Part shown: in pieces, positions 7,497 through 43,408 of the stretch
Layout of the letters: every line of letters begins with the position of its first letter
How positions within the stretch are numbered: the stretch's first letter is position 1
From: Euborellia annulipes
Taxonomy: Eukaryota > Arthropoda > Insecta > Dermaptera > Anisolabididae
Direction of reading: 5' to 3'
Length of the DNA: 64,000 nucleotides
NCBI GenBank assembly: GCA_023213315.1
Contig: JAKCPI010015310.1
Span: 186,001 to 250,000, forward strand
The notes under the pieces: model-generated
Told to the model about the DNA's origin: nothing
What the model saw: the letters and a program-made list of their open reading frames with translations, nothing else
Database searches by the model: none
Position numbers and translations under genes: made by a program

Positions 7497-7545
7497 TGGC
7501 AAATATTTCGACTGGCATTACGCCTAGTCATCATCAGTGCAAACA
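7497..7545 (-). ncRNA. Hammerhead ribozyme-like motif (left arm)
   Basis: Read on the minus strand: CTGATGA, a stem II of about 7 bp (GACTAGGC opposite GCCAGTC, loop GTAAT), then GAAATATT. It is the mirror copy of the plus-strand motif at 7733-7786. All conserved core positions of the hammerhead consensus (CUGANGA...GAAA...UH) are present. Stem I pairing is imperfect. No activity can be inferred without testing. Confidence 0.6.
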
Positions 7546-7732
7546 AATGATTTGGTGGAGGGCCCGTGTCAAACAATGGTTGAGGATTATTTTAAAATTT
7601 CTCGGAGAAGCAGGGGTCAGACGCAAGTGCAAGCGAAGTAACTTCGCTTGCACTTGCGTCTGACCCCTGCTTCTCCGAGAAATTTTAAAATAATCCTCAA
7701 CCATTGTTTGACACGGGCCCTCCACCAAATCA

Positions 7733-7786
7733 TTTGTTTGCACTGATGATGACTAGGCGTAATGCCAGTCGAAATATTTGCCAATT
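7733..7786 (+). ncRNA. Hammerhead ribozyme-like motif (right arm)
   Basis: CTGATGA at 7743-7749 is followed by a GC-containing stem II and GAAA at 7771-7774. The ATAT after GAA is self-complementary and could make stem III in a dimer, putting the predicted cleavage after 7778. Stem I is short and imperfect (TTTGCA opposite TGCCAA). The arrangement matches type I minimal hammerheads known from Penelope-like elements. Confidence 0.6.
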
Positions 7787-7877
7787 AAAGATGATGTGAG
7801 AGGGTCCATCAATTGCTGGTTTTTATTCTCCAGTTCTTTCCTATACATCTTATCCAGCGAAAATCTTCCAATTGCAA

Positions 7878-8892
7878 TCTATACTATTATATAAAAAGGT
7901 CTGTCTATCTGTCTGTCTGTCTGTTTGTAACCCAGAGACTCCGAAACTACTGGACCGATTTTCAAGGAGTTTTTTTTAATGGTCCGGGGGCGGTTTTAGG
8001 CTTTCATTATATCAAATTAGGAGTATGAAATCCCCCTTAGGGGGTTCATAAATCTCTCATAGAAAGCATTGGAAAACACGTTCTAACACGAAAAATATAT
8101 TAATCAAATCTTTAAAATGAAAAATAAAAACTCTTCCCCTAAAATTTGACATTTCAAATTCCCCCCCCTGAAATTAATTTTTTTTTTTATTTTTCACTCG
8201 ATTTTAATAAGATTTAAAATGACGTTTCTCTAGGGTGTAAATAATTGAAAATTATGGTATTCCAGACCTCAGAAAGTTCTATCGGCCCCCCACCCCCACC
8301 CCGCCTCCGCCTCCCTTCCTAATCCTAAAGTTTATTTTCCACTCGATTTCATATTTTTATATTATGCTGCAAAATTAATTAAAATATTAATACATTTATC
8401 TGGACAACTCTTAGTCATACCCCGAGACGCCGTCCGCCAGGCAAGGGCGGATCCAGAGGTGTTTCTCGGGAGGTAATCTGGTGTGACTCGTCGCACAGCA
8501 CACTATTTTTTTCTTAATTTCAGTAATTTAAAGCCGCATTCTGTACTTGTTTGCCAGAATATAAATACAAATCAAATTTTTAAGTATTAATTTTTAAAAT
8601 TTTACGTTAAAATTAAATTTTTTGCGAAAAAAAGGTATTTTTTTTTAAATCTCGGGGGGGGGGGATTACCCCCTTTACCCCCCCCCCCTCCCTTGTATCC
8701 GCCCTTGCCGCCAGGGCCTAGTGGGGTAGGGTTGCCGAAGGCGCACCACTGCTAGCTTATTATAAGTTAGGATTAAAAACGCGATTTTAATAGCCTAAAT
8801 CGAATAATTTTCCAAAGATTTTCAGTTAAATGCCTACGATCTGAAAAAAAATTTCACTTGCACCGTGGTTTCATAAAACCACACAATGATTT
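7878..8892 (+). repeat. Helitron-like repeat interrupted by a hAT MITE
   Basis: It starts TCTATACTATTATATAAAAAGG after an A, a form typical of arthropod Helitron-like 5' ends. A (CTGT)n tract and GAAACTACTGGACCGATTTTC follow. A CTAG at 8752-8755 resembles a Helitron end, but similarity to the repeat at 1385-2340 and to 2745-2795 continues beyond it. It has no Rep/helicase coding. Nested insertion: 8442-8707. Confidence 0.45.
8442..8707. mobile_element. hAT MITE, family CAAGGGCGGAT (copy 1)
   Basis: The ends CAAGGGCGGATCC and GTATCCGCCCTTG are inverted. Identical 8-bp direct repeats CCGCCAGG flank it (8434-8441, 8708-8715). Internal G and C runs abut the termini. It is homologous to 30462-30728 and 50515-50779, and partly to 55322-55430. 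It is non-coding. Confidence 0.9.
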
Positions 8893-9339
8893 TTTTTTCA
8901 ATATCTTTATTAACTTTTAAGCCTACTATTTGGTCTCGCATATTACAGTATATTAAACTACTTTCAAATAAAGTATTATATTATTCTAACTGCATAAACA
9001 CTTTTTTTTTTATTTATCTGTTTTTGTTTAACATAATGCGTTACTTTTTACTTTCTCCTACCCTGTATATGAAATATATATAGAGAGAAAATATTTATTA
9101 TTGTTATGCACTCTTATTAAATCGTATGTGACATACCATTTTGGCTGAATACAAATTTTATTTATTTTTCAAATACTTAGAATTGGTAGGTAAGGATGTA
9201 ATTATGTATTAGTAATATTAGTTATACTCTTATTAATTTATATTAGTAAAATAAATATATGTATGTCGAATACAACTGTGCATTATTTCATTTACTTTGG
9301 CATACGTCGCTTACAACTAGGTAACTTACTGTTATTCCA
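8893..9339. other. AT-rich sequence without a supported gene
   Basis: Only short AT-rich ORFs are present. An R1-type hairpin head (TACTTTCTCCTACCC, then GAGAGAAAATA) occurs at 9048-9092. Confidence 0.4.
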
Positions 9340-9690
9340 AAATTATAAAAGTTGACACGAAATTCAAATATTGTATTTTTAAAAAATACTAGTATACACT
9401 ATCTAAACTGTACAAATTATTATTGAAAAAATATTACATATACACATATATACATTTTTTTTTCGTGTCAGATTGTATGTAGGGGCGCTCATGTGTAGAT
9501 GGCATGCAGGTCGAGAAGCGGCAGCCATCTTGTTTTCTCAACCAGTTCAATTCAGATTGTCACAGATGTAACAACATTTGTAATCTTAGCTGAATTGTAC
9601 CTGAACAAGGCGACAGAATGAGTGGCCGAAACGTTGTAATTTTTACAAATAAACCACAGTTAAACCGAAAATCAAATTCTTTTACTAAAG
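9340..9690 (+). mobile_element. Penelope-type terminal repeat (pLTR) remnant
   Basis: This segment is homologous, in opposite orientation, to 25270-25565, which lies downstream of Penelope-like coding fragments. Shared phrases include GACACGAAATTCAA, ATTGTATTTTTAAAAAATA, ACACTATCTAAACTGTACAAA, GTAGGGGCGCTCATGTGTAGA and GAGTGGCCGAAACGTTGTAA. It ends in a degenerate hammerhead motif, as Penelope pLTRs typically do. No coding sequence remains. Confidence 0.6.
9592..9645 (+). ncRNA. Degenerate hammerhead motif in Penelope-type terminal repeat
   Basis: CTGAACA (9601-9607; consensus CTGANGA, so G8 is lost) is followed by a weak stem II and GGCC-GAAACGTT (GAAAC at 9628-9632). ACGT could form a dimeric stem III. 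The homologous minus-strand copy at 25316-25372 keeps CTGAAGA. This copy is probably inactive. Confidence 0.5.
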
Positions 9691-13609: not shown

Positions 13610-13764
13610 TGTTATATCGGTGGCCGATATACGCGTAAAATAATAGAAAAAGAATTAGACGTAATTATAAATATAACATTTATTTTAATTCTTTAATTAA
13701 TAATAAATAACAATCGCTGACAATCGACTAATTAATGAATAGGATCGGCCAGCTGGATCCAACA
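13610..13764 (-). repeat. 3' LTR of Ty3/gypsy element
   Basis: 155 bp, identical to the right-hand LTR. In element orientation it follows the polypurine tract and the gag-pol stop codon. Element-sense termini are TG...CA. Confidence 0.93.
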
Positions 13765-13773
13765 CCTCCTTCA
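13765..13773 (-). promoter_or_regulatory. Polypurine tract overlapping the gag-pol stop
   Basis: The minus strand reads TGAAGGAGG immediately before the 3' LTR (TGTTGG...). The TGA at its start is the gag-pol stop codon (13773-13771), so the plus-strand primer site and the end of the ORF overlap. Confidence 0.7.
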
Positions 13774-16700
13774 CGTAGATATTTCCCTCGTGTAGGATTG
13801 CTTTGACGGATCGATCTGCAACCGGTCGACTGGAATTGGAATTCGGCTGGATCTTCGAACCTCGTTCGAACCTGAAACAGTCTCTGAAGAAGCTGACGGA
13901 CGAACTTCCTCAGGAGGAATCCGTTGTGTTAATGGAATGATTTCAAATGTATCACACCACGAATTTAAAACTTCATCCCCGGACTCTTCTATCTCGGCTG
14001 TATAATTCGGTCGGAGTTGATTTGCATGCCGAATCCAAATCTCGTTTTCTACCTCTACTTCGTAAACAACTTCACCCCGACGGCCTTTTATCTTGCCTTG
14101 AGTCCATTTTATCTTACCCCCTCTATAATCGAGAGCGAAAACCAATTCGGTTATTTTGTAGCTTTTCTCTTGGACTCCATGTTTTATGTTATAACTTTCC
14201 TCCATTTGCAAGTTCCTTTCCTTGAATTGACCTATTTTTGGTCGGATTAAATCCAAGCTAATCCGAAGCGGTCTTCCAAATATAACTTGGGCCGGAGTCT
14301 GAAAATTTCCATTAATTTTATTTAATGCTTTGTTGGGTGTAGTCCGATAGCTTAATAAAAATGTAGTTAAAATCTTCTCAATACTTCCTTCCCCTTTCTG
14401 TTTGCGAATAGCCCTTTTAAATGTATCCACGAACCGTTCCGCTTGTCCATTGCATTGAGGATAGGCAACCGGCGTTCGAGTATGTTTAATACCATTTTCT
14501 TCGCAAAAATTCACAAACTCTTTCGAGGTAAATTGTGTTCCATTATCCGAGACAATTTCTTCAGGAACCCCAAATTGTGAAAATAGATTTCTTAATTTCT
14601 CAATAGTTTCCCTAGTTGTGGCTTTTCCCATTTTAAAAATTTCAGGCCATTTACTTTTGGCATCCACCACGACCAGGAAGGTATGCCCTTCAAATGGTCC
14701 TGCAAAATCAATATGGAGTCGAGACCATGGCTTTTCTGGAATAGGCCACGATCGTAGTGGTACTCTGATTGGTTGTTTGGCAACTGATGCACATTTATGA
14801 CAAGTTCGAATCATTTCCTCGATTTCTTTGTCCATATTCGGCCAAAACGCATACAAGCGAGCCAATGATTTCGTGCGTTCCATTCCTGAATGTGCTGTAT
14901 GGAACTGCTTTAACATCTGTCTTCTTAAATCTGTAGGTATAACCACGCGATCTCCAAACATTAAACAGTTATCTACAATCGAAAGCGCGTCTCTTCTTTT
15001 ATAATATTCTTGTAATTCAAAATTTTCTAACTTATTTGGCCAATTAGTTGTAATATATTCTTTTACTTTTCCAATATTATTGTCTTTTTTTCCCGATTCT
15101 TCAATCATTTTACGTGTCACGGGTAAAAATCTGATTGTTTCTGACATAATTTGTTTTATTTCCGATTCAATTTTCGCAAGAATTAAATCTTCGTTCTCAC
15201 CATCTTGTTTTTCGGCAATTAACCTTGACAAGGCGTCAGCTTGTCCAAAATTATTGGTGGGACAATATTCTATGTCAAAATCGTAATTCATTAAATAAAT
15301 TGACCATCTCTGCAAACGATTTGCTGAGTGTGCAGATATACCTTTTTTATTTCCAAAAATCGTCAAAAGTGGCTTGTGATCGGTCAATAGATTAAATTTT
15401 CTTCCAAAAATATATTTATGGAATTTTTTTATTGCAAAGATCAAGGCTAACCCTTCTTTTTCAATTTGGCTGTAATTTTTTTCGGCATTCGTTAATGTCC
15501 TAGATGCGTGTGCAATGGCTTTGAAGCTTCCATCTTCAAATTTATGCATTATAACAGCTCCTAATCCATTTTGTGAGGCATCTGCGGCTACGACAATGCT
15601 TTTATTTGGATCAAAATGAGTTAATCCCAGATCTGAAATCAAAATATTTTTTATTTTGTTAAATGCTTGATCACATTCTTTAGGCCAACTCCATTCAGTA
15701 TTTTTACGTAATAAATTATCTAATGGGCTTCGAATATTTGTTAATTCATTTATAAATTCATTATAATAATTCACAAGTCCTAAGAAGGATCTTAATTGGG
15801 TTAAATTATTAGGGCGAGGCATTTTTACAATTGCTTCTATTTTTTTAGGATCAGGAAATCTTCCTTTACTATTTATAATAACCCCTAAAAATTTGATTTC
15901 GGTCATAAAAAATGAGCATTTCTCTGGTTTTATTCGAAAACCATAATCATTTAATTTTTTGAAAACATTTTCTAAATTTTTGCGATGATCATTTTCATCT
16001 TTTCCGGTGATAATGATATCATCTAAATAAGCAAACGCGGTATCGGTACCCGCTAACATTTCGTCCATAATTTGTTGGAAAATTCCCGGGGCCGTTTTAA
16101 CTCCAAACGGTAATCGATTATATCGATACAACCCTTTATGCGTATTTATTGTTAATAAGTGTTTTGAATTTTCTTCCACTTCTATTTGTAAATATGCGTC
16201 AGAAAGATCTATTTTTGAAAAAAATGCACTACCATTTAATTTAGAAAATATATCTTCTGGTAAAGGTAATGGATAATGATGTTGCATTAAGGCATCATTT
16301 AACCCGGTCGAAAAATCTGAGCAAATTCTTATCTGTCCATTTTTTTTCTTAACGACAACTATAGGTGCTGCCCAATCCGAATGATTTACTTTAGAAATCA
16401 CCCCTAGCTCTTCTAGTCTTTCTATTTCCTTATTGATAATTTCTCTAGTTGCGTACGGAACTGGACGACTTGTACGAAAAATTGGTTTTGCATCTTGTTT
16501 CAAATTAAGATTTGCTTTTGCTTTAATACAACAGCCTAAGCCTTTTTGAAAAACATTATTAAATTTTTCTCTATTTTCTTTAATAACTGTTTCCCTTAAT
16601 AGTTTATTTTCAGTTTCGGAATTTTCTATATAATTACAAATAGAAGAAATTGGCATGTCCCATAATTTTAATTTATCAATCCATTCTATTCCTAATAAAT

Positions 16701-17991
16701 TGAGATCATTTTCCTCTGCGATATAAAATTTTCCTTCATCTTTCAAATTTCTAAATGAAAAATTACAAAAAACTTCACCTAATAATTTTACTCTCTGTCC
16801 CGATGCATTCTTTGCACAATGATCTGTTTTTTTATAAGGGATCCGCCCTAATTTTTCCCACGAATCTTTCGATAAAATTGTAATATCAGAGGCCGTGTCA
16901 ATTTGTAATGTTATAGCCCTGTCATTTATATATATATCAATAAATTTGCGTTTATTATTAAAATTATTTTCATTAATAGAATAAATTACTTTTAAATTAC
17001 TATTATTTTTATTATTAAAATTATTCGGTTCCGATTTCGAATTAATTTTCTTTTTATAATTATTATTATTAGATTTATACACGTTCGGTTTACGAAAATG
17101 ACAATAGCCTTCTTTATGGCCTGTTTTTTTGCAAACCTGACATGTGTGGTCCACAAATTTGCAGTCTCTCGCAAAATGTGGTTCTCCACAGAGCCAGCAA
17201 GGGTAATAAGGCTTAATATTAGGGGTTGATTGTGAAGGAGATTTATAATTATTTTTAGAATTTCTTCTAATTTGATTAAATTGTTCATTTTTATTTTGTT
17301 TACAAAATTTATTCGTGCTTACCGCTTTTATTTCGCTGTTACCTTTTTCTATCATACTTGAATCATTTTTGATCATAACAAATCTGTTACATTCATCGAG
17401 TAAATCTTGAAATTTTATATTGGTTTCTGTCTCCATCTTCGCAATCAATCTCGTACGAATCTCGGCATCCCCTTTGGCTTGTAAACCGGAAACAAAAATT
17501 AAGCATTTAAATTGTTCAATGTCTAACTTTTTAAATTCTATTTTCTCACAATGAGAATTTACCAGTGCTCCAAAAGATTTGAAGTCTTGGGTTTGTTCTC
17601 TAGATAATTTAAAACATTGATATCGCAAATTAAAAATTGATGTGGACTTACCAAAATGTTTGGTTAAAAGTGAAACCGTTTCATCATATTTATATTCATT
17701 CGGTTTCTTAGGAAGAATTAAATCTCTATAACGTCTAAAACATGTATTACTTAGCTTGCTGATTAATAAACGAACTTTAGCGGCATCATCCAGACGAGCT
17801 CCATCAATTTCAAAAACATCTTGGTATCTTGCAAACCATATGTCGAACGTTTGGTCACTTTCTGGATCAAAATTAAATTCATTTATTCTCACCGCTAGAG
17901 AATTTATTAATTTTTCATTATCGTTCGTTTGCGCGTTGTAAGCTTGTTGAAGCATTCGTTGAACATCTTCCAATGTAAATATTTTTTCCAT
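13771..17991 (-). CDS. Gag-Pol polyprotein, Ty3/gypsy (single ORF, 1406 aa)
   Basis: Gag occupies about the first 260 residues. Two CCHC zinc knuckles follow (CWLCGEPHFARDC, then CQVCKKTGHKEGYC). The protease motif is DTAS near residue 365, where most relatives have D(T/S)G. Reverse transcriptase spans about 510-700, with YLDD near 654. RNase H includes ADAS near 800 and TDHKPL near 870. Integrase has an H-H-C-C region near 1030-1065, then D in HIDFAG (about 1093), D in SDNGTQF (about 1149) and E in NGQAERF (about 1180). There is no internal stop or frameshift. It resembles arthropod K02A2.6-like gypsy polyproteins. The ATG at 17991 is the first in frame after the primer-binding region. Confidence 0.95.
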   Translation of the reverse strand: MEKIFTLEDVQRMLQQAYNAQTNDNEKLINSLAVRINEFNFDPESDQTFDIWFARYQDVFEIDGARLDDAAKVRLLISKLSNTCFRRYRDLILPKKPNEYKYDETVSLLTKHFGKSTSIFNLRYQCFKLSREQTQDFKSFGALVNSHCEKIEFKKLDIEQFKCLIFVSGLQAKGDAEIRTRLIAKMETETNIKFQDLLDECNRFVMIKNDSSMIEKGNSEIKAVSTNKFCKQNKNEQFNQIRRNSKNNYKSPSQSTPNIKPYYPCWLCGEPHFARDCKFVDHTCQVCKKTGHKEGYCHFRKPNVYKSNNNNYKKKINSKSEPNNFNNKNNSNLKVIYSINENNFNNKRKFIDIYINDRAITLQIDTASDITILSKDSWEKLGRIPYKKTDHCAKNASGQRVKLLGEVFCNFSFRNLKDEGKFYIAEENDLNLLGIEWIDKLKLWDMPISSICNYIENSETENKLLRETVIKENREKFNNVFQKGLGCCIKAKANLNLKQDAKPIFRTSRPVPYATREIINKEIERLEELGVISKVNHSDWAAPIVVVKKKNGQIRICSDFSTGLNDALMQHHYPLPLPEDIFSKLNGSAFFSKIDLSDAYLQIEVEENSKHLLTINTHKGLYRYNRLPFGVKTAPGIFQQIMDEMLAGTDTAFAYLDDIIITGKDENDHRKNLENVFKKLNDYGFRIKPEKCSFFMTEIKFLGVIINSKGRFPDPKKIEAIVKMPRPNNLTQLRSFLGLVNYYNEFINELTNIRSPLDNLLRKNTEWSWPKECDQAFNKIKNILISDLGLTHFDPNKSIVVAADASQNGLGAVIMHKFEDGSFKAIAHASRTLTNAEKNYSQIEKEGLALIFAIKKFHKYIFGRKFNLLTDHKPLLTIFGNKKGISAHSANRLQRWSIYLMNYDFDIEYCPTNNFGQADALSRLIAEKQDGENEDLILAKIESEIKQIMSETIRFLPVTRKMIEESGKKDNNIGKVKEYITTNWPNKLENFELQEYYKRRDALSIVDNCLMFGDRVVIPTDLRRQMLKQFHTAHSGMERTKSLARLYAFWPNMDKEIEEMIRTCHKCASVAKQPIRVPLRSWPIPEKPWSRLHIDFAGPFEGHTFLVVVDAKSKWPEIFKMGKATTRETIEKLRNLFSQFGVPEEIVSDNGTQFTSKEFVNFCEENGIKHTRTPVAYPQCNGQAERFVDTFKRAIRKQKGEGSIEKILTTFLLSYRTTPNKALNKINGNFQTPAQVIFGRPLRISLDLIRPKIGQFKERNLQMEESYNIKHGVQEKSYKITELVFALDYRGGKIKWTQGKIKGRRGEVVYEVEVENEIWIRHANQLRPNYTAEIEESGDEVLNSWCDTFEIIPLTQRIPPEEVRPSASSETVSGSNEVRRSSRIPIPVDRLQIDPSKQSYTREIST

Positions 17992-18035
17992 TTTCAGATA
18001 ATTTTAATTAAATATATATTTATTTAATATTTAAT

Positions 18036-18056
18036 ATTTTGCCTCGTCGCCAATTA
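18036..18056 (-). promoter_or_regulatory. Putative primer-binding site
   Basis: Directly inside the 5' LTR the minus strand reads TAATTGGCGACGAGGCAAAA. A TGG start a few bases from the LTR is usual for a tRNA 3'-end complement. I cannot name the primer tRNA with confidence. Confidence 0.55.
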
Positions 18057-18211
18057 TGTTATATCGGTGGCCGATATACGCGTAAAATAATAGAAAAAGA
18101 ATTAGACGTAATTATAAATATAACATTTATTTTAATTCTTTAATTAATAATAAATAACAATCGCTGACAATCGACTAATTAATGAATAGGATCGGCCAGC
18201 TGGATCCAACA
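18057..18211 (-). repeat. 5' LTR of Ty3/gypsy element
   Basis: 155 bp, identical to the left LTR. It would carry the promoter for the minus-strand transcript. I do not see a canonical TATA box that I would call. Confidence 0.93.
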
Positions 18212-18464
18212 CTGATTAAATCTAATTTTTGTCTTCTTTTTTTTAACATCTAAATGATTTTTTTAAAATAATATGTACATGTGCACGGACTTTTGTGCAT
18301 CAAGAACGATTGTTGTAATCGTTTGTGCCTAAAATAAATATAGACCTAAGCCTTTAAAGGCTCAGGATTGACAAATAAATTTTGTCCGAAACGTCTCCTT
18401 CGGCATTTGCCATTCAAAGTGTTTTTTTTTCTTTGCTGCCCCCATACTTTCTCTTTCTTATCTT

Positions 18465-18862: not shown

Positions 18863-18942
18863 CTTATCTAAATGAATAATTAAGTGAGATATAACAAGGT
18901 TGCAAAAGCAGAAACTGGCAGTCAAATATTTTCTTTATTTAT

Positions 18943-19000
18943 TTTATTGGGCCGACGTTTCGACCTCGATAAGGCGAGGCCATCTTCAGGGCCCAATAAA
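18943..19000 (-). ncRNA. Hammerhead ribozyme, well-formed
   Basis: On the minus strand: TTTATTGGGCC, CTGAAGA (18989-18983), stem II with GGCCTCG opposite CGAGGTC and loop CCTTAT, then GAAACGTC, then GGCCCAATAAA. The 11-base flanks are exact complements and form stem I. All consensus core bases are present. Cleavage would follow the GTC (C at 18954). The palindromic ACGT between GAA and C allows stem III only between two molecules, as in minimal dimeric hammerheads of Penelope-type elements. The flanking repeat is otherwise unrecognised. Confidence 0.75.
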
Positions 19001-19461
19001 TAAAATTTGACTGCCAGTCTCTGCTTTTTCAACCCTTTCTTGACATAAAATTATTATTTACAGGCTTGATTATTTTTCCGAAAAATCGTGCTAATAAATG
19101 TTAATCTTATAAATATTAATTAATAGGAATTCCTTTTGAGATTATTAATAATAATAATAATATTTAATCAATATAAGATATACTTTCCAGACTTGAAAAT
19201 TCTCCTTTTATGGCGGACAACACTTCCGCATTCAATGAAACGTCACCTAAAGTGGAGAGTGTTAGGTTTAAGTCTGAGAGACACACTCATTATTATCAAC
19301 AATAATTGGATTTTGTAACAGAATCATACGCAATTCTCAATTGGAAGATTACTCCTTAATAGATAGCAGGTTCTTAAAGCAATATTTCAATAAAAAACAT
19401 AAATATTTTTCATTTTCAGGATTTTTATTATTTGATGACTGTGTGTGCATATATACCTCCT

Positions 19462-19491
19462 GTTTCGGTCACTCAAATGACCATCATCAGA
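19462..19491 (-). ncRNA. Hammerhead-like core (left arm)
   Basis: The minus strand reads CTGATGA, TGGTCATTTGAGTGACC (stem II GGTCA/TGACC), GAAAC. Core positions are intact. The following AGGAGGTATAT offers a GTA as a possible cleavage triplet, but stems I and III are poor, so function is doubtful. Confidence 0.5.
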
Positions 19492-19564
19492 TCTACAAAA
19501 AACAACATGTTACAACGTGAGAGCTGGCACAAGTCAAACGAAAAAACATAATTGTATATACATA

Positions 19565-20579
19565 CACTGTAAAAAAAAATTTTAATTTTAGTATGTTTTA
19601 GTATAGTAAATTTACAAATTTTCCTTGTAAATGATAACTACCATACATTTGTATACCAAATTTACAAATCTATGCATTCAAAAAATTTTTACAACCAAAA
19701 AACATTTTAAAATTACAATTCTCTTGGAAAATTAGAGTAAATATTGTAATTTTACCATACGATTTCTAATTTTACAATACAACGGCATTGTAATTTTAGA
19801 ACACGGTTTGTAATTTTAGAAAAGGGTTTGTAATTTTACAAAAAGGTTTCTAATTTTACAATACAAGGGTATTGTAATTTTCCTTTTAAGGCTGTCTTCG
19901 ACGGCCAACATGGCCGACTTTGTTTCAACTGCTTTTTATTGTTAGCTTTCTTAATAAAGACATTTTTGGCACTATAAGGATTTATTTAAGTTATAATAAT
20001 ACAAAAAATAATAATATTATGACAACTTTAAGTTTATTTTTTATTTTATTATTTAGTAAAAATAGTTTAAAATGAGGTCATACTTGAATGCCAAATAGCA
20101 GAGATAGATCATTAGTTAACAGGTGATTCGATGGTCAAATGGACTAGGCAGCAAGGCTTCTACAAAAAAGTTCAATGTTCAAATCCTGGAGGAATTTTTC
20201 ATTAAATAAAAATATTTACTTCACTCCATTCAGGTAGAGACGTCCCCTAAAGGTCAATAACCTATGGGTCCAGTCGTAAATTTTTTTTCTTTTTTTCTAA
20301 ATATTAGTAAAATTACAAACATTTGGATTGTAAAATTGCTAAATATTAGTAAAATTACCAAATTTGGACTCGAAAATTGCTAAATATTGGTAAAATTACC
20401 AGACATTTGGACTCGAAAATTGCTAAAAATTAGTAAAATTACCACACATTTGTAAACGATTTTTGCAAAGAGTTTTGTAAAAATATAATTCAACTATATA
20501 GTAATTTTAGTATCTATTGGTCTTGGAAATTTGCTTACAACAAAAAAATTGTAAAATCATCGAAATTTTTTTTACAGTG
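19565..20579. mobile_element. TA-flanked MITE, TIR CACTGTAAAAAAAA
   Basis: The ends CACTGTAAAAAAAAATTT and AAATTTTTTTTACAGTG are flanked by TA (19563-19564, 20580-20581), consistent with Tc1/mariner-type insertion. The interior repeats TTAGTAAAATTAC and TTGTAATTTTA many times. It also contains a tRNA-like SINE fragment near 20110-20215, with GTTCAAATCCTGG as a B-box-like sequence. Confidence 0.75.
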
Positions 20580-20659
20580 TATATGTATGGGTGTCTGTTT
20601 GGTTAGTTTGTTGTTTTTTCGTTTGACTTGTGCCAGCTCTCAGGTTGTAACATGTTGTT

Positions 20660-20705
20660 TTTTGCAGATCTGATGATGGTCATTTGAGTGACCGAAACTG
20701 GTGGT
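20660..20705 (+). ncRNA. Hammerhead-like core (right arm)
   Basis: CTGATGA (20670-20676), stem II GGTCA...TGACC, GAAAC (20694-20698). It is the mirror of 19462-19491. The downstream TGGTGGTA lacks a clear NUH site at the usual place, so this is probably degenerate. Confidence 0.5.
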
Positions 20706-20930
20706 ATATGTGCACACACAGTCATCAAATAATAAAAATCCTGAAAATGAAAAATATTTATGTTTTTTATTGAAATATTGCTTTAAGAACCTGCTATAAA
20801 AGAGTAATCTTCCAATTGAGAATTGCGTTACTCATTATTATATTCAAAATATTTAAAAAATCTTAATCTTATTTGAAAATATAAAAAATAAATAATCTTA
20901 ATAAAATTCATCTTATAATTTTTTTTTCAG

Positions 20931-25744: not shown

Positions 25745-25800
25745 GATTTACTCGACGTTTCGGCTCTCCTTTTGGAGCCATTTTCAAGAGTATGGGATTA
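25745..25800 (-). ncRNA. Decayed hammerhead motif
   Basis: Minus strand: TACTC, TTGAAAA in place of CTGANGA, stem II GGCTCC/GGAGAGCC, GAAACGTC, GAGTA. Stem I and the GAAACGTC side are intact, but C3 and G8 of the core are changed, so cleavage is unlikely. Confidence 0.45.
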
Positions 25801-28110: not shown

Positions 28111-28139
28111 GTTTTCCTTTAGAAAAGAAAAATTTTAAA

Positions 28140-29246: not shown

Positions 29247-29249
29247 GTA

Positions 29250-29754: not shown

Positions 29755-30045
29755 TTTTATTTTTAGCTTTATTAAGTATCAATGTCGACTTTTCTGCCTA
29801 TTTTTCTGACCTTCTTCAGGACTTACCCTATGCAATGTTTGCTTCGAGCTTAAAGGAGGCTCTTGGCAGCGACGAATGTTCACACTAATAATATGTTAGG
29901 AGTTGCCAAGAGCCTCCTTTAAGCTTGAAGCAAATATTGTATATGTCTTGAAGAAGACCGGAAAAATCTGCCGAAACATCGACATGGATACTTAATAAAG
30001 CTAAAAATAAAAAAAATTCCTTGTTTTGCTTTTGGCTGCCTTTTC
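29755..30045. repeat. Foldback with decayed hammerheads, same family as 43142-43456
   Basis: Arms carry AGCTTTATTAAGTATC and inverted GATACTTAATAAAGCT, CGACATTGATAC/GTATCCATGTCG, and a centre with TTGCCAAGAGCCTCCTTTAAG. The minus-strand left arm keeps CTGAAGA...GAAAAGTC. The plus-strand right arm has TTGAAGA...GAAACATC with stem I ATGTC/GACAT. Both cores carry substitutions. Confidence 0.65.
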
Positions 30046-32200: not shown

Positions 32201-32372
32201 TGTGGCGACGTAGTTCAAAGAATATAAATTTGGAATGGTTGCCAGGAGAAGAGTATATAAGGAGATGTTTAATGTTTTTGTTTTTTATTGTAAAAATTTA
32301 TTTTGAATAAAAAGAAAAGATTGTTTTTGTTCTTGAATCCGGTAATTTATTGCCTCTCAAGTTAAGGTCTAA
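32201..32372 (+). repeat. 5' LTR of second Ty3/gypsy element
   Basis: 172 bp, TGTGGCGACG...GGTCTAA. Contains GAGTATATAAGGAG, a plausible TATA region, and AATAAAAAG, a plausible polyadenylation signal. Confidence 0.9.
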
Positions 32373-32396
32373 ATTGGTGACCCCGACGTGATCGCG

Positions 32397-33157
32397 ATGT
32401 CAGAAGAGCGCCATTTTGGAAGGTTAATCCCGCTTTATGGTTCCAACAATTGGAGGCGCAGTTCGCTTTACGGGGAATCACCCAAGATGAAACCAAGTAT
32501 TATTATGCAATTTCAGCCATTGAGAGTGACATCTTGCAAGAGGTTAGTGATATTATTATTAATCCGCCTCAAAAAGAGAAATATCATGCCCTTAAAGTCA
32601 ATTTAATTAAGCAATTTTCGGATTCCGAGGAAAAACGGTTAAAAAAATTATTAAGTGAGCTTCAGTTAGGAGACAAAAAGCCGTCCAAGCTTTATAGAGA
32701 AATGAAGGAAGTATCATCCAATAAGGTTGATGATAGTTTGTTGAAGACGTTGTGGCTGCAGAGGCTGCCGCATCATATGCAAGCTGTTCTTTCAGTCTCA
32801 GGGGAGACTATTGATAAGTTACTGCCCATGGCGGATAAGATTAGTGAAATTTCTGAAGATAAAGGCCTGTTTGAGGTTAGGAAATCCCAATCGGTGGACA
32901 ATCCTCGGGGTGAATTAGCTGCTTCTTCAACTGAAATGGAAGAGCTGAAAAAGCAGGTTGCGGAGTTAACCCTGGGGATAGAACAGTTAAGAATGAATAA
33001 TAAATATAATAGGCGTGAGAGATTCCGAGATCAGTCCCGATCACAAAGGGGACGTTCTCTTTCCAGGGGCCGCTCTTTTTGTTGGTACCATGATAGATTT
33101 GGTAGAAGGGCAGATAAATGTCAACCTCCTTGTAATTTTGCGAGTTCGGGAAACTAA
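32397..33157 (+). pseudogene. gag of second Ty3/gypsy element
   Basis: The main frame (32450-33157, about 235 codons) encodes a gypsy-type gag: QLEAQFALRG, TKYYYAISAIESDILQEVSD, SELQLGDKKPSKLYREMK, LWLQRLPHHMQAVLS, and a C-rich end (CWYHDRFGRRADKCQPPC). The likely ATG (32397) is in another frame; a one-base slip near 32415 separates them. It ends in a stop at 33155. Confidence 0.8.
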
Positions 33158-33183
33158 AGAGTCCACAAGTTGAGGCGGCGAGC

Positions 33184-33642
33184 TTGTTGGATGAAAAATC
33201 TAGTCGCTTATTTATCATAGATAAAAGGTCACAAAAAGCATTTTTGGTGGATACCGGGGCGGATGTCTCAGTCGTTCCTCCCGATGGTAGGCTCGGCAGA
33301 TCATCGTCAGAGGCTCACCGCATTTATGCCGCTAATGGATCTGTAATAAAAACGTTTGGGCAGAAACTCATACAAATAGATTTAGGTTTGAGAAGAGCAT
33401 TCCAATGGCCTTTTATCATTGCGGAGGTTTCCAAGCCTATCCTAGGAGCAGATTTTCTGTCGAATTTTGGCCTCTTGGTTGATTTGAAGCGTAGAAGGTT
33501 ACTTGATACATCTACCCAACTGTCTTGTAGCGGTACCATTATAAACGGGTTCTCAGGAAGTATTACTACTGTGAACAAAGCCTCGCCATTTTCTTTCTTG
33601 CTGGAGAAGTATAGCAGCATCACTAAGCCTCTTCAGGTTTAA
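33184..33642 (+). pseudogene. Retroviral-type aspartic protease region of the gypsy element
   Basis: Contains FLVDTGADVSVVPPD, the D-T-G active site. RIYAANGSVIKTFG and PILGADFL follow, typical of gypsy proteases. Frame relationships to the gag and RT pieces are disrupted. Confidence 0.8.
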
Positions 33643-34942
33643 GAAAACATTCAGCACCAGGTTACGCATCATATAATTACGGAGGGGCCTCCTGTTTTTG
33701 CTAAAGCAAGGCGATTATCTCCGCATAAGTTGGCCATTGCTCGAAAGGAGTTCCAGTATATGTTGGAAGCTGGCATATGCCGACCATCTAGCAGTAATTG
33801 AGCGAGTCCATTACACCTGGTTCCTAAAGCAAATGGAGATTGGAGGCCTTGTGGCGATTTTAGAAGATTAAATTCTGTAACGGTTCCCGATCGCTACCCA
33901 GTACCGCATATTCAAGATGTTTCCAGTCTTTTGCATGGTAAGCAAGTTTTTTTTTACAATTGATCTTACTAAGGCATATCATCAAATACCGGTCGAGCCC
34001 AAGGATATTCATAAGACCGCTGTTATTACCCCGTTCGGGCTCTATGAGTTCCCTAGAATGACTTTTGGGCTGTGCAACGCTGCACAGACTTTTCAACGCT
34101 TTATAGATGAGGTTTGTAGGGGCTTAGATTTTTGCTTCGCTTATATTGACGATTTGCTTATCGCGTCGAGCAGCTTGGAGCAGCATATGAAAGATTTGGA
34201 ATTATTATTTCAACGACTACAGCAACATGGTCTTGTAATTAATTTAGCAAAATGCAAATTCTGTCAAAGTGAGGTTAATTTTTTAGGGAACTTAATTTCT
34301 GGCTCTGGTATTCGTCCCCTACCGGATAAAGTTAAGGTGATTAGAGATTTCAAATTGCCAAAATGTAGGAAGGAACTTAGGAGATTTCTGGCTATGGTCA
34401 ATTTTTATCGCCGGTTCATTCCTCATGCTTTAAATCATCAATTAATATTGCTAGAGTATCTAAAAGGGGATAAGAGAAATGACAGAGGAATGATTGAATT
34501 TAGTGAAGAGGCGAAGTTAGCTTTTGAAAATGTTAAAAAGGACCTTGCGGAGGCAACACTCTTGGCTCATCCTTCCCCCGACGCTCCTTTAGCGTTGATG
34601 GTAGATGCGTCTGATTTGGCTTTAGGTGGTGTGGTGCACCAGTGGATAAAAGGTAGTTTTTTCTCAGCGCCTTTCTGATACACAGAGGAGTTATAGCGCT
34701 TTTGATCGGGAGTTACTGGCAGCTTATGAAGCTATTAAGCATTTTCGCTCCTTGCTGGAGGGGCGCCATTTCACTTTATTTACTGATCACAAGCCATTAG
34801 TTTTTGCGTTTCAACACCGCTCTGACCGTGCGTCGCCTCGACAATTGAGGCATTTGGATTTGGTAGGACAATACACCACGGATATTCGGCATATTTCAGG
34901 AAGTCAGAATGTCACTGCCGATGCCGTGTAGAGGCTATTCAG
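33640..34942 (+). pseudogene. Reverse transcriptase and RNase H of the gypsy element
   Basis: The RT begins near 33690 in a frame carrying a TGA at 33798. A slip in the T run near 33950 moves to the frame 33917-34678: [31 protein letters not shown], and [11 protein letters not shown] with YIDD in the active site. RNase H follows ([15 protein letters not shown]), then another slip near 34660 in a T run. The rest (RELLAAYEAIKHF, FTDHKPLVFAF) lies in a different frame, with a TAG near 34928. Confidence 0.85.
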
Positions 34943-36262
34943 GTGCCGTCAAGGATTGAATTTTCGGAGTTGGCTAAAGATCAGGCTAAGGATGAGGAGC
35001 TGAAGATTTATTTAAAAGCAGGTAGTGGTGATTCATTGTCTCTGGTTAAAGTTAAAATACCGAATTCCAATTTTCCGTTGTATTGTAACATAACGTCTGG
35101 CTTTATTCGGCCATTTCTTTGTAAGAAGTACCGGCGACAAGTCTTTGACTCTTTCCATAATCTATCACACCCTGGAGTGAAGGCAAGCGTAGACTTAGTT
35201 CGCAAGCGTTATGTGTGGCCTTCGATCAAAAAGGACTGTCAGTTGTGGGCCCGGGGTTGTCATGAATGCCAGAAAAACAAGGTGCACAGGCATACCTATT
35301 CTCCTTTGGAGGGGTACAAATTACCTAGCGATCGCTTCCGTCATATACATATAGATTTAGTGGGCCCATTGCCTTCGTCTGATGGTTATAGGTACTGTTT
35401 GACATGTGTAGACCGTTTTACAAGGTGGCCTGAGGCATTTCCCATTAAGGACATCAGCGCTACCACCGTTGCAAGGGCGCTATATGATGGATGGATGTCT
35501 CGTTTTGGAGTCCCTGAGATTGTTACTACCGATCGAGGAATGCAGTTTGAATCGGGTTTGTTTTCATCATTAGCCCGGCTTCTTGGCACTAGTCATTGCA
35601 GAACCACGTCCTATCATCCGCAGGCAAACGGGTTGGTAGAGAGATGGCATCGCTCATTTAAGAGCGCGATTAAGTGCCATGGAACCAACCGTTGGACGGA
35701 GGTACTCCCTACCGTTTTGTTGGGATTGCGTACAGCTTTTAAAGAGGACCTACAAGCTTCAGGGGCTGAGATGGTTTATGGATCTACACTTAGGCTTCCT
35801 GGAGAATTTCTGGGTTCAGGCGGTTTTGCAACATATCCATTATCTTTTGTTGGCCAATTGCAGCAGCATATGTCAAAATTGAAGCCATGTCCAGTTAGGT
35901 GGCACGGTTCTCGTAATGTTTTTATACATAAGGATCTTAAAGATTCTTCTCATGTTTATGTGAGGCAGGATGCTATTAAGCCACCTCTACAGGCACCTTA
36001 CGATGGGCCATATCCAGTCACATATCGTGCAAAGAAGTATTATACTGTTAAGATAAAAGGGAAAGATAGTAACATCTCAGTTGATCGCTTAAAGCCTGCT
36101 TTCTTGATTCAGGAAGATGGAAACGAGAAGGAAAAGAAAAGGATACTTAGGCCTACCGAGTCAAAAGACGATTTGAAACCAGCACTAAGGACAACTAGGA
36201 GCGGAAGACGAGTACACTTTCCACCACACCTGTTGGAAGTGTTAGCACTGGAGGGGGAGTAG
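34943..36262 (+). CDS. Integrase region of the gypsy element, frame open
   Basis: 439 codons open. Zinc-binding H-H-C-C (FHNLSHPGVKASVDLV, CHECQ), then the D-D-E core: D in HIDLVGPL, D in TTDRGMQFES, E in NGLVERWHRS. A basic C-terminal tail follows (RTTRSGRRVHFPPHL). It reads to the 3' LTR. It is the only long undamaged part of this element's pol. Confidence 0.85.
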   Translation: MPSRIEFSELAKDQAKDEELKIYLKAGSGDSLSLVKVKIPNSNFPLYCNITSGFIRPFLCKKYRRQVFDSFHNLSHPGVKASVDLVRKRYVWPSIKKDCQLWARGCHECQKNKVHRHTYSPLEGYKLPSDRFRHIHIDLVGPLPSSDGYRYCLTCVDRFTRWPEAFPIKDISATTVARALYDGWMSRFGVPEIVTTDRGMQFESGLFSSLARLLGTSHCRTTSYHPQANGLVERWHRSFKSAIKCHGTNRWTEVLPTVLLGLRTAFKEDLQASGAEMVYGSTLRLPGEFLGSGGFATYPLSFVGQLQQHMSKLKPCPVRWHGSRNVFIHKDLKDSSHVYVRQDAIKPPLQAPYDGPYPVTYRAKKYYTVKIKGKDSNISVDRLKPAFLIQEDGNEKEKKRILRPTESKDDLKPALRTTRSGRRVHFPPHLLEVLALEGE

Positions 36263-36434
36263 TGTGGCGACGTAGTTCAAAGAATATAAATTTGGAATGG
36301 TTGCCAGGAGAAGAGTATATAAGGAGATGTTTAATGTTTTTGTTTTCTATTGTAAAAATTTATTTTGAATAAAAAGAAAAGATTGTTTTTGTTCTTGAAT
36401 CCGGTAATTTATTGCCTCTCAAGTTAAGGTCTAA
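36263..36434 (+). repeat. 3' LTR of second Ty3/gypsy element
   Basis: 172 bp, one visible difference from the 5' LTR. Confidence 0.9.
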
Positions 36435-36799
36435 ACACCCATCAAAATGGATTACTTTTCTAGAATACCAAAAAGGAAAACATCTCTTGAAAGAACTGAA
36501 GATTGTGAATGATCCGGCAGAAAGGGGTATCAATCTAATAGAGGATTTCAACGATAAAATTACACTGGATGAGGATCAAAAGCAATTTTTAGTGCAGGTG
36601 ACTTAGACTACGTTTTATATTTTCTGAAATTGGCATGATTAATAACCTTATAAATACATTTGTGTTTTTATTTGTTAGAGACAGTCCAAGAATACCGGCG
36701 AAAATATTCTAGGCCAACAAGAGAAGTCTTACAAAAAACATTCACGTAGAATATGTAACTTTTCATTATAATGTTCGTTTATATTTAAGTTATGCCTAT

Positions 36800-37248: not shown

Positions 37249-38502
37249 AAATGCTTTTATTTAAATTGAACTAAAAAGAGAAAAATAATTTAATTTAATT
37301 GTTCTTGTTGAAATTGTTTAATATTAATGACTTAAAATAAAAGCGTGGGGCGCTCATTGATATTCGTAGCTTAAGGGAAGCCTCGGAATAACTTCGAAGC
37401 GCCCACGCTTTTATTTTAAGCCATTAATATTAAACAATTTCAACAAGAACAATTAAATTAAATTATTTTTCTCTTTTTAGTTCAATTTAAATAAAAGCAT
37501 TTTTTTTTAAAGTTTTTTTTTATTATATTTTTATTTTAAACTTTTTAGTCTTTTTTATTATAGATAGAGTGAGTATTAAATAAAAAAAAAAGGCAGGAAG
37601 CGGGAGGGATCAAATAAAGTACCACATTAGTTTAGTCTATTTTGATAAAAAGCTTCAGGCAATAGTTGTCATCAAAAATTACCCTTAAATATCAAATTTC
37701 ACGCCTCTAGCTCATCGGGAAGTCTTTTGAAAATAGATTTGTTTGCGTGAGGTTTCAAATAAAGTACCACATTAATTTGGCCTATTTTGGTGAAAAATTT
37801 TTTACAAGGGTGTCCCTAAAAATGAACCTTAAATATCAAATTTCACATCTCTAGCTCATCGGGAAGGCTTTTGAAAATAGATTTGTTTTCGTGAGGTTTC
37901 AAATAAAGTACCACATTAATTTGGCCCATTTTAGTGAAAAAATTTTTACAAGGGTGTCCCTAAAAATGAGCCTTAAATATCAAATTTCACACCTCTAGCT
38001 CATCGGGAAGGCTTTTGAAAATAGATTTGTTTGCGTGAGGTTTCAAATAAAGTACCACATTAATTTGGCCCATTTTGGTGAAAAATCTTTTACAAGGGTG
38101 TCCCTAAAAATGACCCTTAAATATCAAATTTCACACCTCTAGCTCATCGGAAAGGCTTTTGAAAATAGATTTGTTTGCGTGAGGTTCCAAATAAAGTACC
38201 ACATTAATTTGGCCTATTTTGGTGAAAAATTTTTTACAAGGGTGTCCCTAAAAATGAGCCTTAAATATCAAATTTCACACCTCTAGCTCATCGGGAAGGT
38301 TTTTGAAAATAGATTTGTTTGCGTGAGGTTTCAAATAAAGTACCACATTAATTTGGCCCATTTTGGTGAAAAAATTTTTACAAGGGTGTCCCCAAAAATG
38401 ACCCTTAAATATCAAATTTCACACCTCTAGCTCATCGGGAAGTGCCCTAAGCAAAGACTCAAAGTTGGTGACCTTGAAAGAGTAAGTTAAATAAAAGCAT
38501 TT
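37249..38502. mobile_element. Composite foldback-minisatellite element 2
   Basis: The head foldback: AAATGCTTTTATTTAAATTGAACT with AAAAAGAGAAAAATAATTTAA returns inverted at about 37380-37502, ending TTAAATAAAAGCATTT. A tandem array follows (37615-38440). The element closes with a third TTAAATAAAAGCATTT at 38487-38502. It shares the plan of 9768-13553 and the AAAAAGAGAAAAATAAT inner block, but has an unrelated array. Confidence 0.7.
37615..38440 (+). repeat. Tandem array, unit about 144 bp, about six copies
   Basis: Units carry GTGAGGTTTCAAATAAAGTA, CCACATTAATTTGG, ACAAGGGTGTCCCTAAAAAT and TTTCACACCTCTAGCTCATC. Starts are near 37746, 37891, 38035, 38179 and 38323 (period 144-145), plus a diverged first unit. 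Copies are highly similar. Confidence 0.92.
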
Positions 38503-39130
38503 AAAAAAAAATAGGGCAAGAGCGCCACGTATTAATATTATTATTTTGAGCCAATATTCTATAGGACTTACTTTTGGATATAATGGAACAAAATTCCGCC
38601 CGGCACTACTCCCTAAAAGAAAATTGAAAAAAAATAAGTGGCACCCTAATATATATTTATAGACAAATTTTCTTAATTAGATAATATATTTTGGAGTAAA
38701 TACTTGCTGTCACAAAGGGTTTCAGTTGGACAAAAAAAACCTGAAAAATTTGATAATTCTTTATTATATTTATTTTTTCTATAAGCTAACCAACAATTAA
38801 GGTAACAGAAGAAATCTGTTCATTTTAATTAATCTAGCCAGAAATCTTCTAAAAAAAATTCTTAAAGTATGTAGAGAGGCAATGGGTTGGACAGATTGTG
38901 AAGATCAATATAAATTACATAGGCAAAAAAAAAAAATTATGCCGAGATATTTCAAACTTCAAATGCCCCAATGGCCACTTAAAAAAAAAATTTCTGTTTG
39001 GAGGGCCGAATTATAAAATAGTTGGTATGCAACTTCATCAGTGAGTTTTAATAGGTATGGTATACAAAGTAAAAACGCGTTTGTATTATTATTTTAATTT
39101 ATATAAAAAATATCAAATTACAAAAAACTT
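38503..39130. other. AT-rich sequence, no supported gene
   Basis: Apart from the inverted match of 38560-38650 to 29352-29480, I see nothing. Confidence 0.4.
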
Positions 39131-39134
39131 AGTA

Positions 39135-40595: not shown

Positions 40596-40599
40596 TTAT

Positions 40600-41739: not shown

Positions 41740-41960
41740 ATAATTGGAGGTTTACTTCTTTTAAATCCGTATGATGGAGTTCACGGTAATTAAAAACAAA
41801 GTATTTTACTTTATTATGCAGGAATTTTATTGCCAGACAACTGTTGTGTGCACATTCTCACAGTTTCGGTCCGAAAAGGACCATCATCAGGCCTGAAACA
41901 TACAAATTGTTTTCTTAAATTTCATGCAACACCGGGCCAATCTTTCATATGATTACATAT
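41740..41960 (-). repeat. Repeat with hammerhead core (41860-41895)
   Basis: Minus strand: GGCCTGATGATGGTCCTTTT, CGGACC, GAAACTGTGAGAATGTGC. CTGATGA at 41890-41884, stem II GGTCC/GGACC, GAAAC at 41867-41863. All core bases are present, but the cleavage triplet and stem I are unclear. The surrounding sequence resembles the arm repeat at 19440-19500. Confidence 0.5.
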
Positions 41961-42039
41961 TCATTTTCTTCACAATACAATGAATGAAGCTGTTGGGAAA
42001 AAGCATAAGGGTAATTTATATATTTAGGTAGAGATATAG

Positions 42040-42560
42040 ATAAAAATTAAATTTTACTAGAAAATGTGCTTAAACTGCTTTTATTTTGAATTTCCTAGAT
42101 TTTGTTTAAGGCGTTACCCCTTAAAAATATGCAGATAGTTGGAATAATATTAAGTTTCAGCCCATTCGGAGGTGATTAAATGGTTCGCCTAAGAGATTGG
42201 TAGCCAAAGTTTTTTTCAAAAACTATTTTGTATATAATTTCGTTAAAAATTAACAGATTTGTTTGTTCAAAGTCTGATAAAAAAAAAAAAAAAAAAAAAA
42301 AAAAAATAGGCGGTTAGCTCTCTCTCTGTAACTCTAGTTTATTGGAATGTGACGGACACTACTAAATCACCCCCGATTGGGCTGAAACTTTATATTTCTA
42401 TGTATTTCAATTATCTGCATATTTTTTAAGGGGTAACACCTTGAAAAAAATCTAGGAAATTCAAAATAAGAGCACTTTTAGACCACATTTTCTATTAAAA
42501 TTTAATTCTCTATATCTCTAAAACTAGAACTGATAGGGTAAAACTGATGGAATTTTTGGA
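42040..42560. repeat. Foldback repeat with poly-A spacer
   Basis: Arms 42045-42205 and 42355-42535 are inverted copies (ATTTAATTCTCTATATCTCTAAAACT, TCTGCATATTTTTTAAGGGG, GGGCTGAAACTTTATA). A poly-A run (42281-42306) lies in the spacer. The arms are distantly related to those of the element at 39537-40595. Confidence 0.75.
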
Positions 42561-42924
42561 ATCATATGCTACCCACATACCCAGGAATAGTTTAAAATAG
42601 CCCGATGGATTCTCAGCAAACGAAATTTTTATGCTAGACTCAAAAAAAAATGCCTATAACAAAATATAAATATTTTCCCATACTTATAAATAGAGACCGG
42701 ATTTTTATGCAGCAAAAACCGCTAAATATGCCATATAATATGCAGTAAAAGTATTAAAATATGCAGCCAAATATGCAATATATTTATGGCAAAAATATTG
42801 AGTAAATGGCTTCCAATTAAAGGTAAATCATGATTTCTACTGATGTAAAACTAATGGTGTTTTATTTTTGGAAGGAAATGATTAAAAAAAAAAAAAAATT
42901 GGTCTCGCAATAAAAACTAAATTT

Positions 42925-42955
<31 letters not shown>

Positions 42956-43192
42956 ACAGTAATATCAGTACAGTCAAATGTGTTAATTTATTTAACAAAA
43001 TAGTTTTCTATAAAATATATACTAAATATTATTTAACAAAATAAACATTTTATAAAAAAAAAAAACGTAATATTTCTGAGAAACTAACTTTTAATTTGTA
43101 ACTGAACGTATAATTAAAATTAACAATGAGGAGAGTAAGGGAGCCGGAAGCAATTAAAGAAAAATTATTTCTCTTTTTTCGCTTTATTTAAT

Positions 43193-43243
43193 ACAATTGT
43201 CGACGTTTCGGTCGATCTTTCCGGGCTTCATCAAGACAAATGT
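43193..43243 (-). ncRNA. Hammerhead-like motif, left arm
   Basis: Minus strand: ACATTTGTC, TTGATGA (core C3 changed to U), stem II GCCCGG...GACC, GAAACGTC, GACAATTGT. Stem I is nearly complete. The C3 change suggests loss of activity. Confidence 0.55.
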
Positions 43244-43357
43244 TATTGACTCGAGCTTAGAGGGGCTCTTGGCAAACATAACATTTGCCCTAATGCTGTT
43301 CGCACCAACAGTTATGTCAGAAGTTGCCAAGAGCCCCTCTAATCTCGAGTCAACAAC

Positions 43358-43408
43358 AATTGTCCTGATGAAGGCCGGAAAAATTGGCCGAAACGTCGAC
43401 AATTGTAT
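43358..43408 (+). ncRNA. Hammerhead ribozyme, canonical core
   Basis: ACAATTGTC (stem I), CTGATGA (43367-43373), stem II GGCC...GGCC with loop GGAAAAATT, GAAACGTC (43392-43399), GACAATTGT (stem I partner, exact complement). Predicted cleavage follows C 43399. As at 18943, ACGT is a palindrome and would form stem III in a dimer. This is the best-formed copy on the plus strand. Confidence 0.75.

Follow-up and report, generated by a model that had tools for sequence, protein, structure and literature searches.

The 64,000-nucleotide stretch of the genome of the dermapteran Euborellia annulipes analyzed here (contig JAKCPI010015310.1, positions 186,001 to 250,000; hereafter the window, numbered from its first letter) contains numerous motifs resembling hammerhead ribozymes, many of them placed in palindromic repeats. 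This raises the question of which elements carry these motifs and how the palindromes arise. With a probability that we put at about 0.86, the motifs represent type I hammerheads belonging to Penelope-like elements (PLEs), and RNAs composed only of the pseudo-long terminal repeats (pLTRs) of such elements are mobilised in trans and inserted as head-to-head pairs. The observations behind this reading are (i) a three-stem logic with covarying stems, (ii) a hammerhead upstream of two of four PLE frames, and (iii) coding-free units bordered by target duplications. Minimal type I hammerheads that lack helix III are described as numbering in the thousands in metazoan genomes, where they are either dispersed or located in PLE pLTRs (PMC7761336), and PLE insertion, like the reason for keeping the ribozyme, as poorly understood (PMC11167929, PMC7761336); here and below, statements from cited papers refer to the parts of their text available to us.

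Hammerhead motifs in the window

A first-pass annotation of the window had listed 13 motifs, eight better and five degenerate ones, and all 13 were found where it had placed them. We searched with a strict descriptor (CTGANGA, at most one extra nucleotide, stem II of at least 4 contiguous bp, GAAA, stem III either zero-loop or real, and stem I of at least 3 contiguous bp), which matched six times (7743+, 7537-, 18989-, 43365+, 20670+ and 41890-). The mean in 300 order-2 Markov windows was 0.033 per window, with at most 10 windows containing a match and never more than one of a kind. The descriptor was composed after the sites had been inspected, and the excess is therefore partly fitted, although the margin is still large. 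A relaxed scan gave six matches in the window and one across 40 random windows; the bare CTGANGA..GAAA pattern, which is weak evidence by itself, gave 21 matches versus 6.6 expected under a simple Markov model.

Six of the eight better sites passed the strict descriptor, whereas 19462-19491 (stem III broken, as judged by eye) and 25316-25372 (stem II interrupted, stem I short) did not. All of the degenerate sites failed it, but their family membership is recognisable in every case. An additional hammerhead-like motif, absent from the first-pass annotation, was identified at 4009-4056 on the minus strand. The sites, with the elements (E1 to E9) to which we assigned them, are as follows.

4009-4056, minus strand: hammerhead relic of E8, with GCAA in place of GAAA (relaxed scan and alignment)
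7424-7438, no strand: left target-site duplication of E1 (ATCTATACTATTATA), exact 15-bp direct repeat with 7877-7891
7439-7639, minus strand: untailed inverted arm of E1 (perfect inverted repeat)
7494-7545, minus strand: E1 hammerhead with zero-loop stem III (GAAATATT; strict descriptor)
7641-7876, plus strand: E1 arm with a one-sided 35-nt tail at 7842-7876 (arm comparison)
7735-7786, plus strand: E1 hammerhead with zero-loop stem III, same unit as 7494-7545 (strict descriptor)
7877-7891, no strand: right target-site duplication of E1, direct repeat with 7424-7438
9593-9643, plus strand: E4b hammerhead relic within the non-palindromic 224-nt copy 9461-9684 (family comparison)
18946-18997, minus strand: E2 hammerhead with zero-loop stem III and very long stem I (strict descriptor)
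19285-19296, no strand: left target-site duplication of E3 (ACTCATTATTAT), 12-bp direct repeat with 20830-20841
19297-19548, minus strand: inverted arm of E3 with a 31-nt tail at 19297-19327 (arm comparison)
19463-19490, minus strand: E3 hammerhead core with stem III damaged (by eye), not among the strict matches
20612-20829, plus strand: untailed arm of E3 (arm comparison)
20667-20726, plus strand: E3 hammerhead with full stem III of 4 bp and an 18-nt loop (strict descriptor)
20830-20841, no strand: right target-site duplication of E3, direct repeat with 19285-19296
25317-25371, minus strand: E4 hammerhead with interrupted stems, within the copy 25276-25510 (family comparison)
25746-25795, minus strand: hammerhead relic of E9, with the PLE relic about 1.6 kb away (relaxed scan and alignment)
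27350-28134, minus strand: PLE coding relic in three frames (motifs ADKGN, SLDVESLFTNVP and GIY-YIG)
29779-29827, minus strand: hammerhead relic in the left arm of E5 (family alignment)
29940-29988, plus strand: hammerhead relic in the right arm of E5 (family alignment)
41833-41896, minus strand: E6 hammerhead with full stem III of 5 bp and a 15-nt loop (strict descriptor)
43194-43242, minus strand: hammerhead in the left arm of E7, C3 changed to T (family alignment)
43357-43405, plus strand: hammerhead in the right arm of E7 (E7b), the best minimal copy (strict descriptor; 18.4 bits with RF00163)

Conserved core and covarying stems

The six strict matches have the core CUGANGA...GAAA with stem I open; several of the ten copies aligned as described below carry core changes. 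Stem III is collapsed to 'GAAACGTC' in most sites. In four of the strict ones (both E1 arms, E2 and E7b) it consists of one complementary pair without a loop, which, judging from the sequence, could form between two molecules, and in the remaining two (the right arm of E3 and E6) it is a real stem. One extra base (A or T) is present between A9 and stem II in all six.

The families are mostly unrelated in their flanks (local scores over approx. 300 nt, those above 40 being listed): E1, E2, E4, E8 and E9 each stand alone, E3 is related to E6 and E5 to E7, and the pair E3a-E8a scores 43. We aligned ten minimal copies from six families, and found them alike in little beyond the catalytic core, with stems I and II covarying. 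Nine of ten pairs of these stems vary on both sides, and 79% of the stem cells are paired (62.7% after shuffling). The cells altered on both sides number 19 versus 7.7 in shuffled alignments; none of the 500 shuffled alignments reached this value, and the best of the slid controls had 12. The covariation score is 0.542 versus at most 0.180 for slid alignments. Since four of the ten rows belong to the E5/E7 family and two to E4, the cells of this alignment are not independent events. When partners were shuffled among eight copies, one per element type (of which E3 and E6 are related), pairing exceeded expectation in both stem I (37 of 48 pairs versus 24.5; P = 0.00025) and stem II (38 of 40 versus 30.4; P = 0.00015). 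A covariance model built from the ten copies recovers them by construction, together with the identical other arm of E1; E6 and E3 appear in its results only at E-values of 0.5-2, inside the noise.

Relationship to Penelope-like elements

The proposed identity of the motifs as Penelope-type I hammerheads was borne out, and at the level of sequence they are confirmed as real copies of this known kind. The window itself contains a PLE relic (27350-28134), whose three frames encode ADKGN, SLDVESLFTNVP and GVYKINC..C...YIGQT, which we take to be PLE and GIY-YIG motifs. This relic matches PF01541 at an E-value of 0.0094, below the cut-off, and a comparison with solved structures yielded nothing convincing (best E-value 0.35).

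A search of the 903-Mb genome with PF01541, in which 150 of 710 candidates were scored, revealed 118 matches over the cut-off, in frames of up to 852 aa. Four of the longest frames, picked by length (L167 to L170), were examined for hammerheads. A clear same-sense hammerhead precedes the frame in L170 (356-404, E-value 4.8e-10; first ATG at 583, approx. 180 nt downstream) and in L167 (516-566, E-value 6.6e-7; first ATG at 577, approx. 10 nt downstream); five other matches, at E-values of 0.15-0.51, resemble noise. RVT_1 matches all four frames (just below the cut-off in L168), and RVT_1 and GIY-YIG are both over the cut-off in L167 and L170, a combination seen in these genome frames and not in the elements of the window. 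The L167 hammerhead resembles that of E1 over 50 nt (score 53 versus 27 when shuffled), and the L170 hammerhead resembles that of E8 (56 versus 25). By eye, the AUG in the L167 hammerhead opens a short frame before the main open reading frame (ORF); the idea that the extra base creates the PLE start codon was dropped.

Paired insertions of the E1 and E3 families

The E1 unit is 236 nt long. The best 40 of 1422 first-look candidates in the genome were scored, and these arms, which represent 30 loci, all reach query positions q231-236, an end favoured by the choice of query. Beside them lie 34 further matches; 33 of these are inverted, and the direct one is a 60-nt piece at C4170. An inverted partner accompanies 32 of the 40 arms. 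At 24 of the 30 loci this constitutes a head-to-head pair of one tailed copy and one inverted, untailed copy (two of these pairs, L122 and L123, look like the same insertion seen twice). The outer ends of the partners fall at q199-213, none of the 24 being tailed, whereas their inner ends vary from q1 to q130, with a junction gap of -4 to 38. A target duplication of 12-16 bp, in several cases AT-rich, borders 23 of the pairs, and one of 9 bp the remaining pair; with mismatched flanks, 3 of 583 comparisons reach at least 12 bp. The exact 236-mer occurs at nine loci and at least one intact core at 28 of the 30, which indicates that the family is young. Judging from first-look counts only, the genome possibly contains hundreds more E1 copies.

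For E3, the best 40 of 675 first-look candidates were scored, giving 30 loci and 59 matches of 84-100% identity, and the sequence divergence marks this family as older than E1. Twenty-five loci are paired and comprise 18 distinct pairs; in 14 of these exactly one arm is tailed and the other untailed, and four are not scorable. Target duplications of 12-13 bp were found in nine pairs and of 9-11 bp in three, with none above 6 bp in six (8 of 236 mismatched comparisons, which still include rows of the same insertion, reach at least 12 bp). Truncation affects either the tailed or the untailed arm. Three pairs of stem III are retained in 29 of the 30 copies, yet these positions are nearly invariant.

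In neither family do the inner ends of the second copies coincide with the predicted cleavage site: none of 24 lies at q138/139 of E1, and none of those listed lies near q112 of E3. This argues for templates left uncut at the ribozyme.

In the window, the centre of E3 (19549-20611) is occupied by a different sequence of approx. 1.06 kb. Its ends are imperfectly inverted (CACTGTAAAAA...), and it is probably a miniature inverted-repeat transposable element (MITE) nested in E3.

A model of paired insertion and its alternatives

These pairs may be explained as follows. The pLTR-only RNA would be mobilised by a PLE protein acting in trans. Both DNA ends of a staggered break would then prime one cDNA each, from starts internal to the RNA, one start lying at the end of the tail and the other approx. 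31 nt further in. The two cDNA copies would then meet head to head, one of them often cut short, which would produce a palindrome with a single tail. The ribozyme itself probably trims multimeric PLE RNA, and may act as a dimer where stem III has collapsed. The protein of the Anolis Poseidon PLE, PAc, cuts and extends both strands of the DNA, and its reverse transcription begins at two adjacent positions within the RNA (PMC11167929); the pairs observed here fit two such initiations. We also considered, tentatively and with rather less than even confidence, a stricter form in which priming of the break ends at two RNA sites is obligatory and strand-coupled, and in which gene-less pLTR RNAs spread in the manner of short interspersed elements (SINEs) from uncleaved transcripts.

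The main rival of two initiations is self-priming (snap-back) of one cDNA, or copying on an antisense template. This has been argued for in Adineta vaga (PMC3846280), it would also yield variable inner ends, and small overlaps or fillers are indeed present at the E1 junctions. Snap-back would, however, be expected to copy the tail, yet none of the 24 E1 partners is tailed and all 14 scorable E3 pairs have one tail, which makes this route unlikely, though a serious contender. Far less probable are foldback or MITE-like DNA transposons that carry hammerheads by accident. Their long inverted repeats without coding sequence would match what is seen here, and E7 does move within a DNA transposon (see below); for E1 and E3 such an origin was rejected, given the variable length of the inner arm (E1), duplications of no fixed length (12-16 bp in E1) and outer ends that are unequal within a pair, and it may apply to E2, E5 and E8.

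Retrozymes, the tandem type I hammerhead repeats that spread via circular RNA in metazoans, are comparable in unit size (approx. 170-400 nt; PMC7229834) and likewise lack coding sequence, but direct tandem units were not observed beside the 40 E1 arms, where all further matches except the 60-nt piece are inverted, and we regard this origin as very improbable. Least probable of all are chance matches within AT-rich repeats. The background of the bare pattern is sizeable and Rfam scores stay below threshold, but for the set as a whole chance is refuted by the descriptor (6 versus 0.033), the covariation (19 versus 7.7) and the hammerheads adjoining two PLE frames; single degenerate copies may be fortuitous.

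Several results weigh against the reading of the motifs as PLE hammerheads whose pLTR RNAs are inserted as pairs. Rfam, run over the whole window, detected no hammerhead family at E-values up to 1, and RF00163 at 43359-43403 (slice 43340-43430 searched alone) scored 18.4 bits, below the gathering score of 34. In the small, length-picked sample of PLE frames, a hammerhead at the pLTR/ORF junction is clear in two of four; L168 has a weak same-sense match (399-459, E-value 0.11; ATG at 574) and L169 a weak antisense match alone (E-value 0.1), both at noise level. The frame scan of L168 and L169 detected no GIY-YIG domain at E-values up to 0.01, though the genome search had scored them at 30.5 and 31.3 bits. 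No autonomous partner of E1 was identified, the likeness of E1 to L167 being confined to the 50-nt ribozyme. At six of the 30 E1 loci the arm is solo and lacks a target duplication above 8 bp (at one of these, L121, a short inverted stretch is visible by eye), five of the 30 E3 loci are without a pair, and the E3 core is only slightly more conserved than its flanks (0.990 versus 0.964, P = 0.05).

The alignment of RF00163 at 43359-43403 agrees exactly with the structure described above, with a stem III loop length of zero, and the weak L168 match shows, by eye, a stem I of GGUC/GACC and a stem III of 3 bp. With single slices (7300-7980, 18900-19040, 41825-41915 and 20650-20740), Rfam detected no hammerhead at E-values up to 10. 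A genome-wide search with RF00163 gave no match, but 73 of 82236 candidates were scored and the control was detected in none of 14 genomes, which renders it uninformative. Nine viral or bacterial loci with three-stem hammerheads recognisable by eye also gave no Rfam match at the gathering score, and the silence of Rfam is therefore weak evidence. The check by covariance and conservation that the first-pass annotation had called for thus gave a mixed outcome: Rfam at or near background and an E3 core barely above its flanks on one side, strong covariation on the other.

E7 and the other elements

Of the elements E1 to E9, E1 and E3 are those for which an inverted pair with a one-sided tail and a short duplication was established; no convincing target duplication was found at E2, E5 or E8 in the window. 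The E7 arm gave 1124 first-look candidates, and all 40 scored were identical over 120 bp, with the partner arm at 91-93%. The flanks outside the E7 palindrome are common to all 30 genome loci, which indicates that E7 did not multiply by jumping of the ribozyme unit; two candidate target duplications of 9 and 11 bp were dropped on account of these shared surroundings. The carrier is a transposon at approx. 42691-45783 with the terminal inverted repeat TAGAGACCGGATT, an 8-bp duplication CTTATAAA (ends by eye) and a DUF659 ORF (43484-44818), which we take from its anatomy to be a hAT-like element. At several of the 30 loci this hAT-like carrier is internally deleted. E5 and E7 are relatives whose central spacers are also related, and the likeness of E5 to E7 stops near the palindrome. 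The suggestion that the palindromes constitute a new kind of coding-free element does not hold in that form, since the junctions of E1 and E3 vary as in inverted pLTR pairs and E7 rides in a hAT-like transposon.

Transcripts of the palindromes (E1 on both strands, E5, E7 and E8) are predicted to fold into a single long hairpin in which the ribozyme and its antisense copy are base-paired with each other (-392 kcal/mol for E1, -214 kcal/mol for E7). The statement that either transcript strand contains a ribozyme is thus true of the letters, but the predicted hairpin would lock that ribozyme, and little active ribozyme is to be expected from palindromic loci. According to these folding predictions, more would come from copies that are solo or heavily truncated.

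E4 differs in form: its two copies (9461-9684 and 25276-25510) are non-palindromic, have a common 3' end (ATCAAATTCTTTTA) and contain a weak hammerhead, and could represent a SINE-like unit.

Comparison with known systems

The kind of ribozyme found here is already known; the newest part of our results is the presence of exactly one tail in every scorable pair. Minimal PLE hammerheads, as reviewed (PMC7761336, PMC6155905), have the same type I topology, a reduced helix III, non-coding or pLTR locations and possible cleavage as dimers. The motifs of the window appear to differ from them in the full stem III of E6 and the right arm of E3 and in the extra base after A9. PAc has its hammerhead at the pLTR/ORF junction, a position clear in two of the four frames here; its main insertion substrate is uncleaved RNA, and ribozyme mutations had no effect on insertion in vitro, with which templates uncut at the ribozyme are in line. 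No strand difference in start site is apparent in the PAc data (PMC11167929), whereas the pairs that could be scored here all combine a tailed with an untailed copy.

Penelope of Adineta vaga shares inverted pLTRs of approx. 200 bp, palindromes at their junctions, short target duplications, solo pLTRs and a 31-bp tail optionally present on one inverted pLTR. The available text reports a low copy number and mainly copies with an ORF or pieces, and does not mention a ribozyme (PMC3846280); here, in contrast, pLTR-only pairs are recurrent and, for E1, nearly identical. In the available parts of the literature on PLE and hammerhead palindromes we found no description of ribozyme-bearing PLE palindromes (Cervera and De la Pena 2014 and Lunse et al. 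2017 are known to us via reviews only). Each young E1 insertion records two start sites, a truncation point and a target duplication, and the family thereby makes the order of insertion and the role of the ribozyme testable from sequence alone.

Other observations

A conserved hammerhead (CTGATGATGGC..GCCGAAACGTCC) was observed in phage-like sequences, namely the viral contigs L003-L015 and the Paenibacillus contig L026, with stems III and I recognisable by eye (e.g. CCCGT/ACGGG) and a stem II of at least 5 bp in 12 of 15 viral loci. These hammerheads also carry the extra base, but the search pattern required one. The pattern CTGAWGAWGGN{6,30}CCGAAACGTC matched 61 stretches in prokaryote genomes, close to the approx. 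47 estimated by chance.

Two Gypsy-like elements are present in the window, one at 13610-18212, in which a 1410-aa frame is open and the 156-nt repeats show 100% identity, and one at 32201-36435 with broken frames and 173-nt terminal repeats that are 99% identical. Sub-threshold tRNA matches within repeats (46777-46850, 61621-61694 and 61954-62027) suggest that these repeats are tRNA-derived SINEs. A tandem array with a period of 144 nt extends over 37523-38542.

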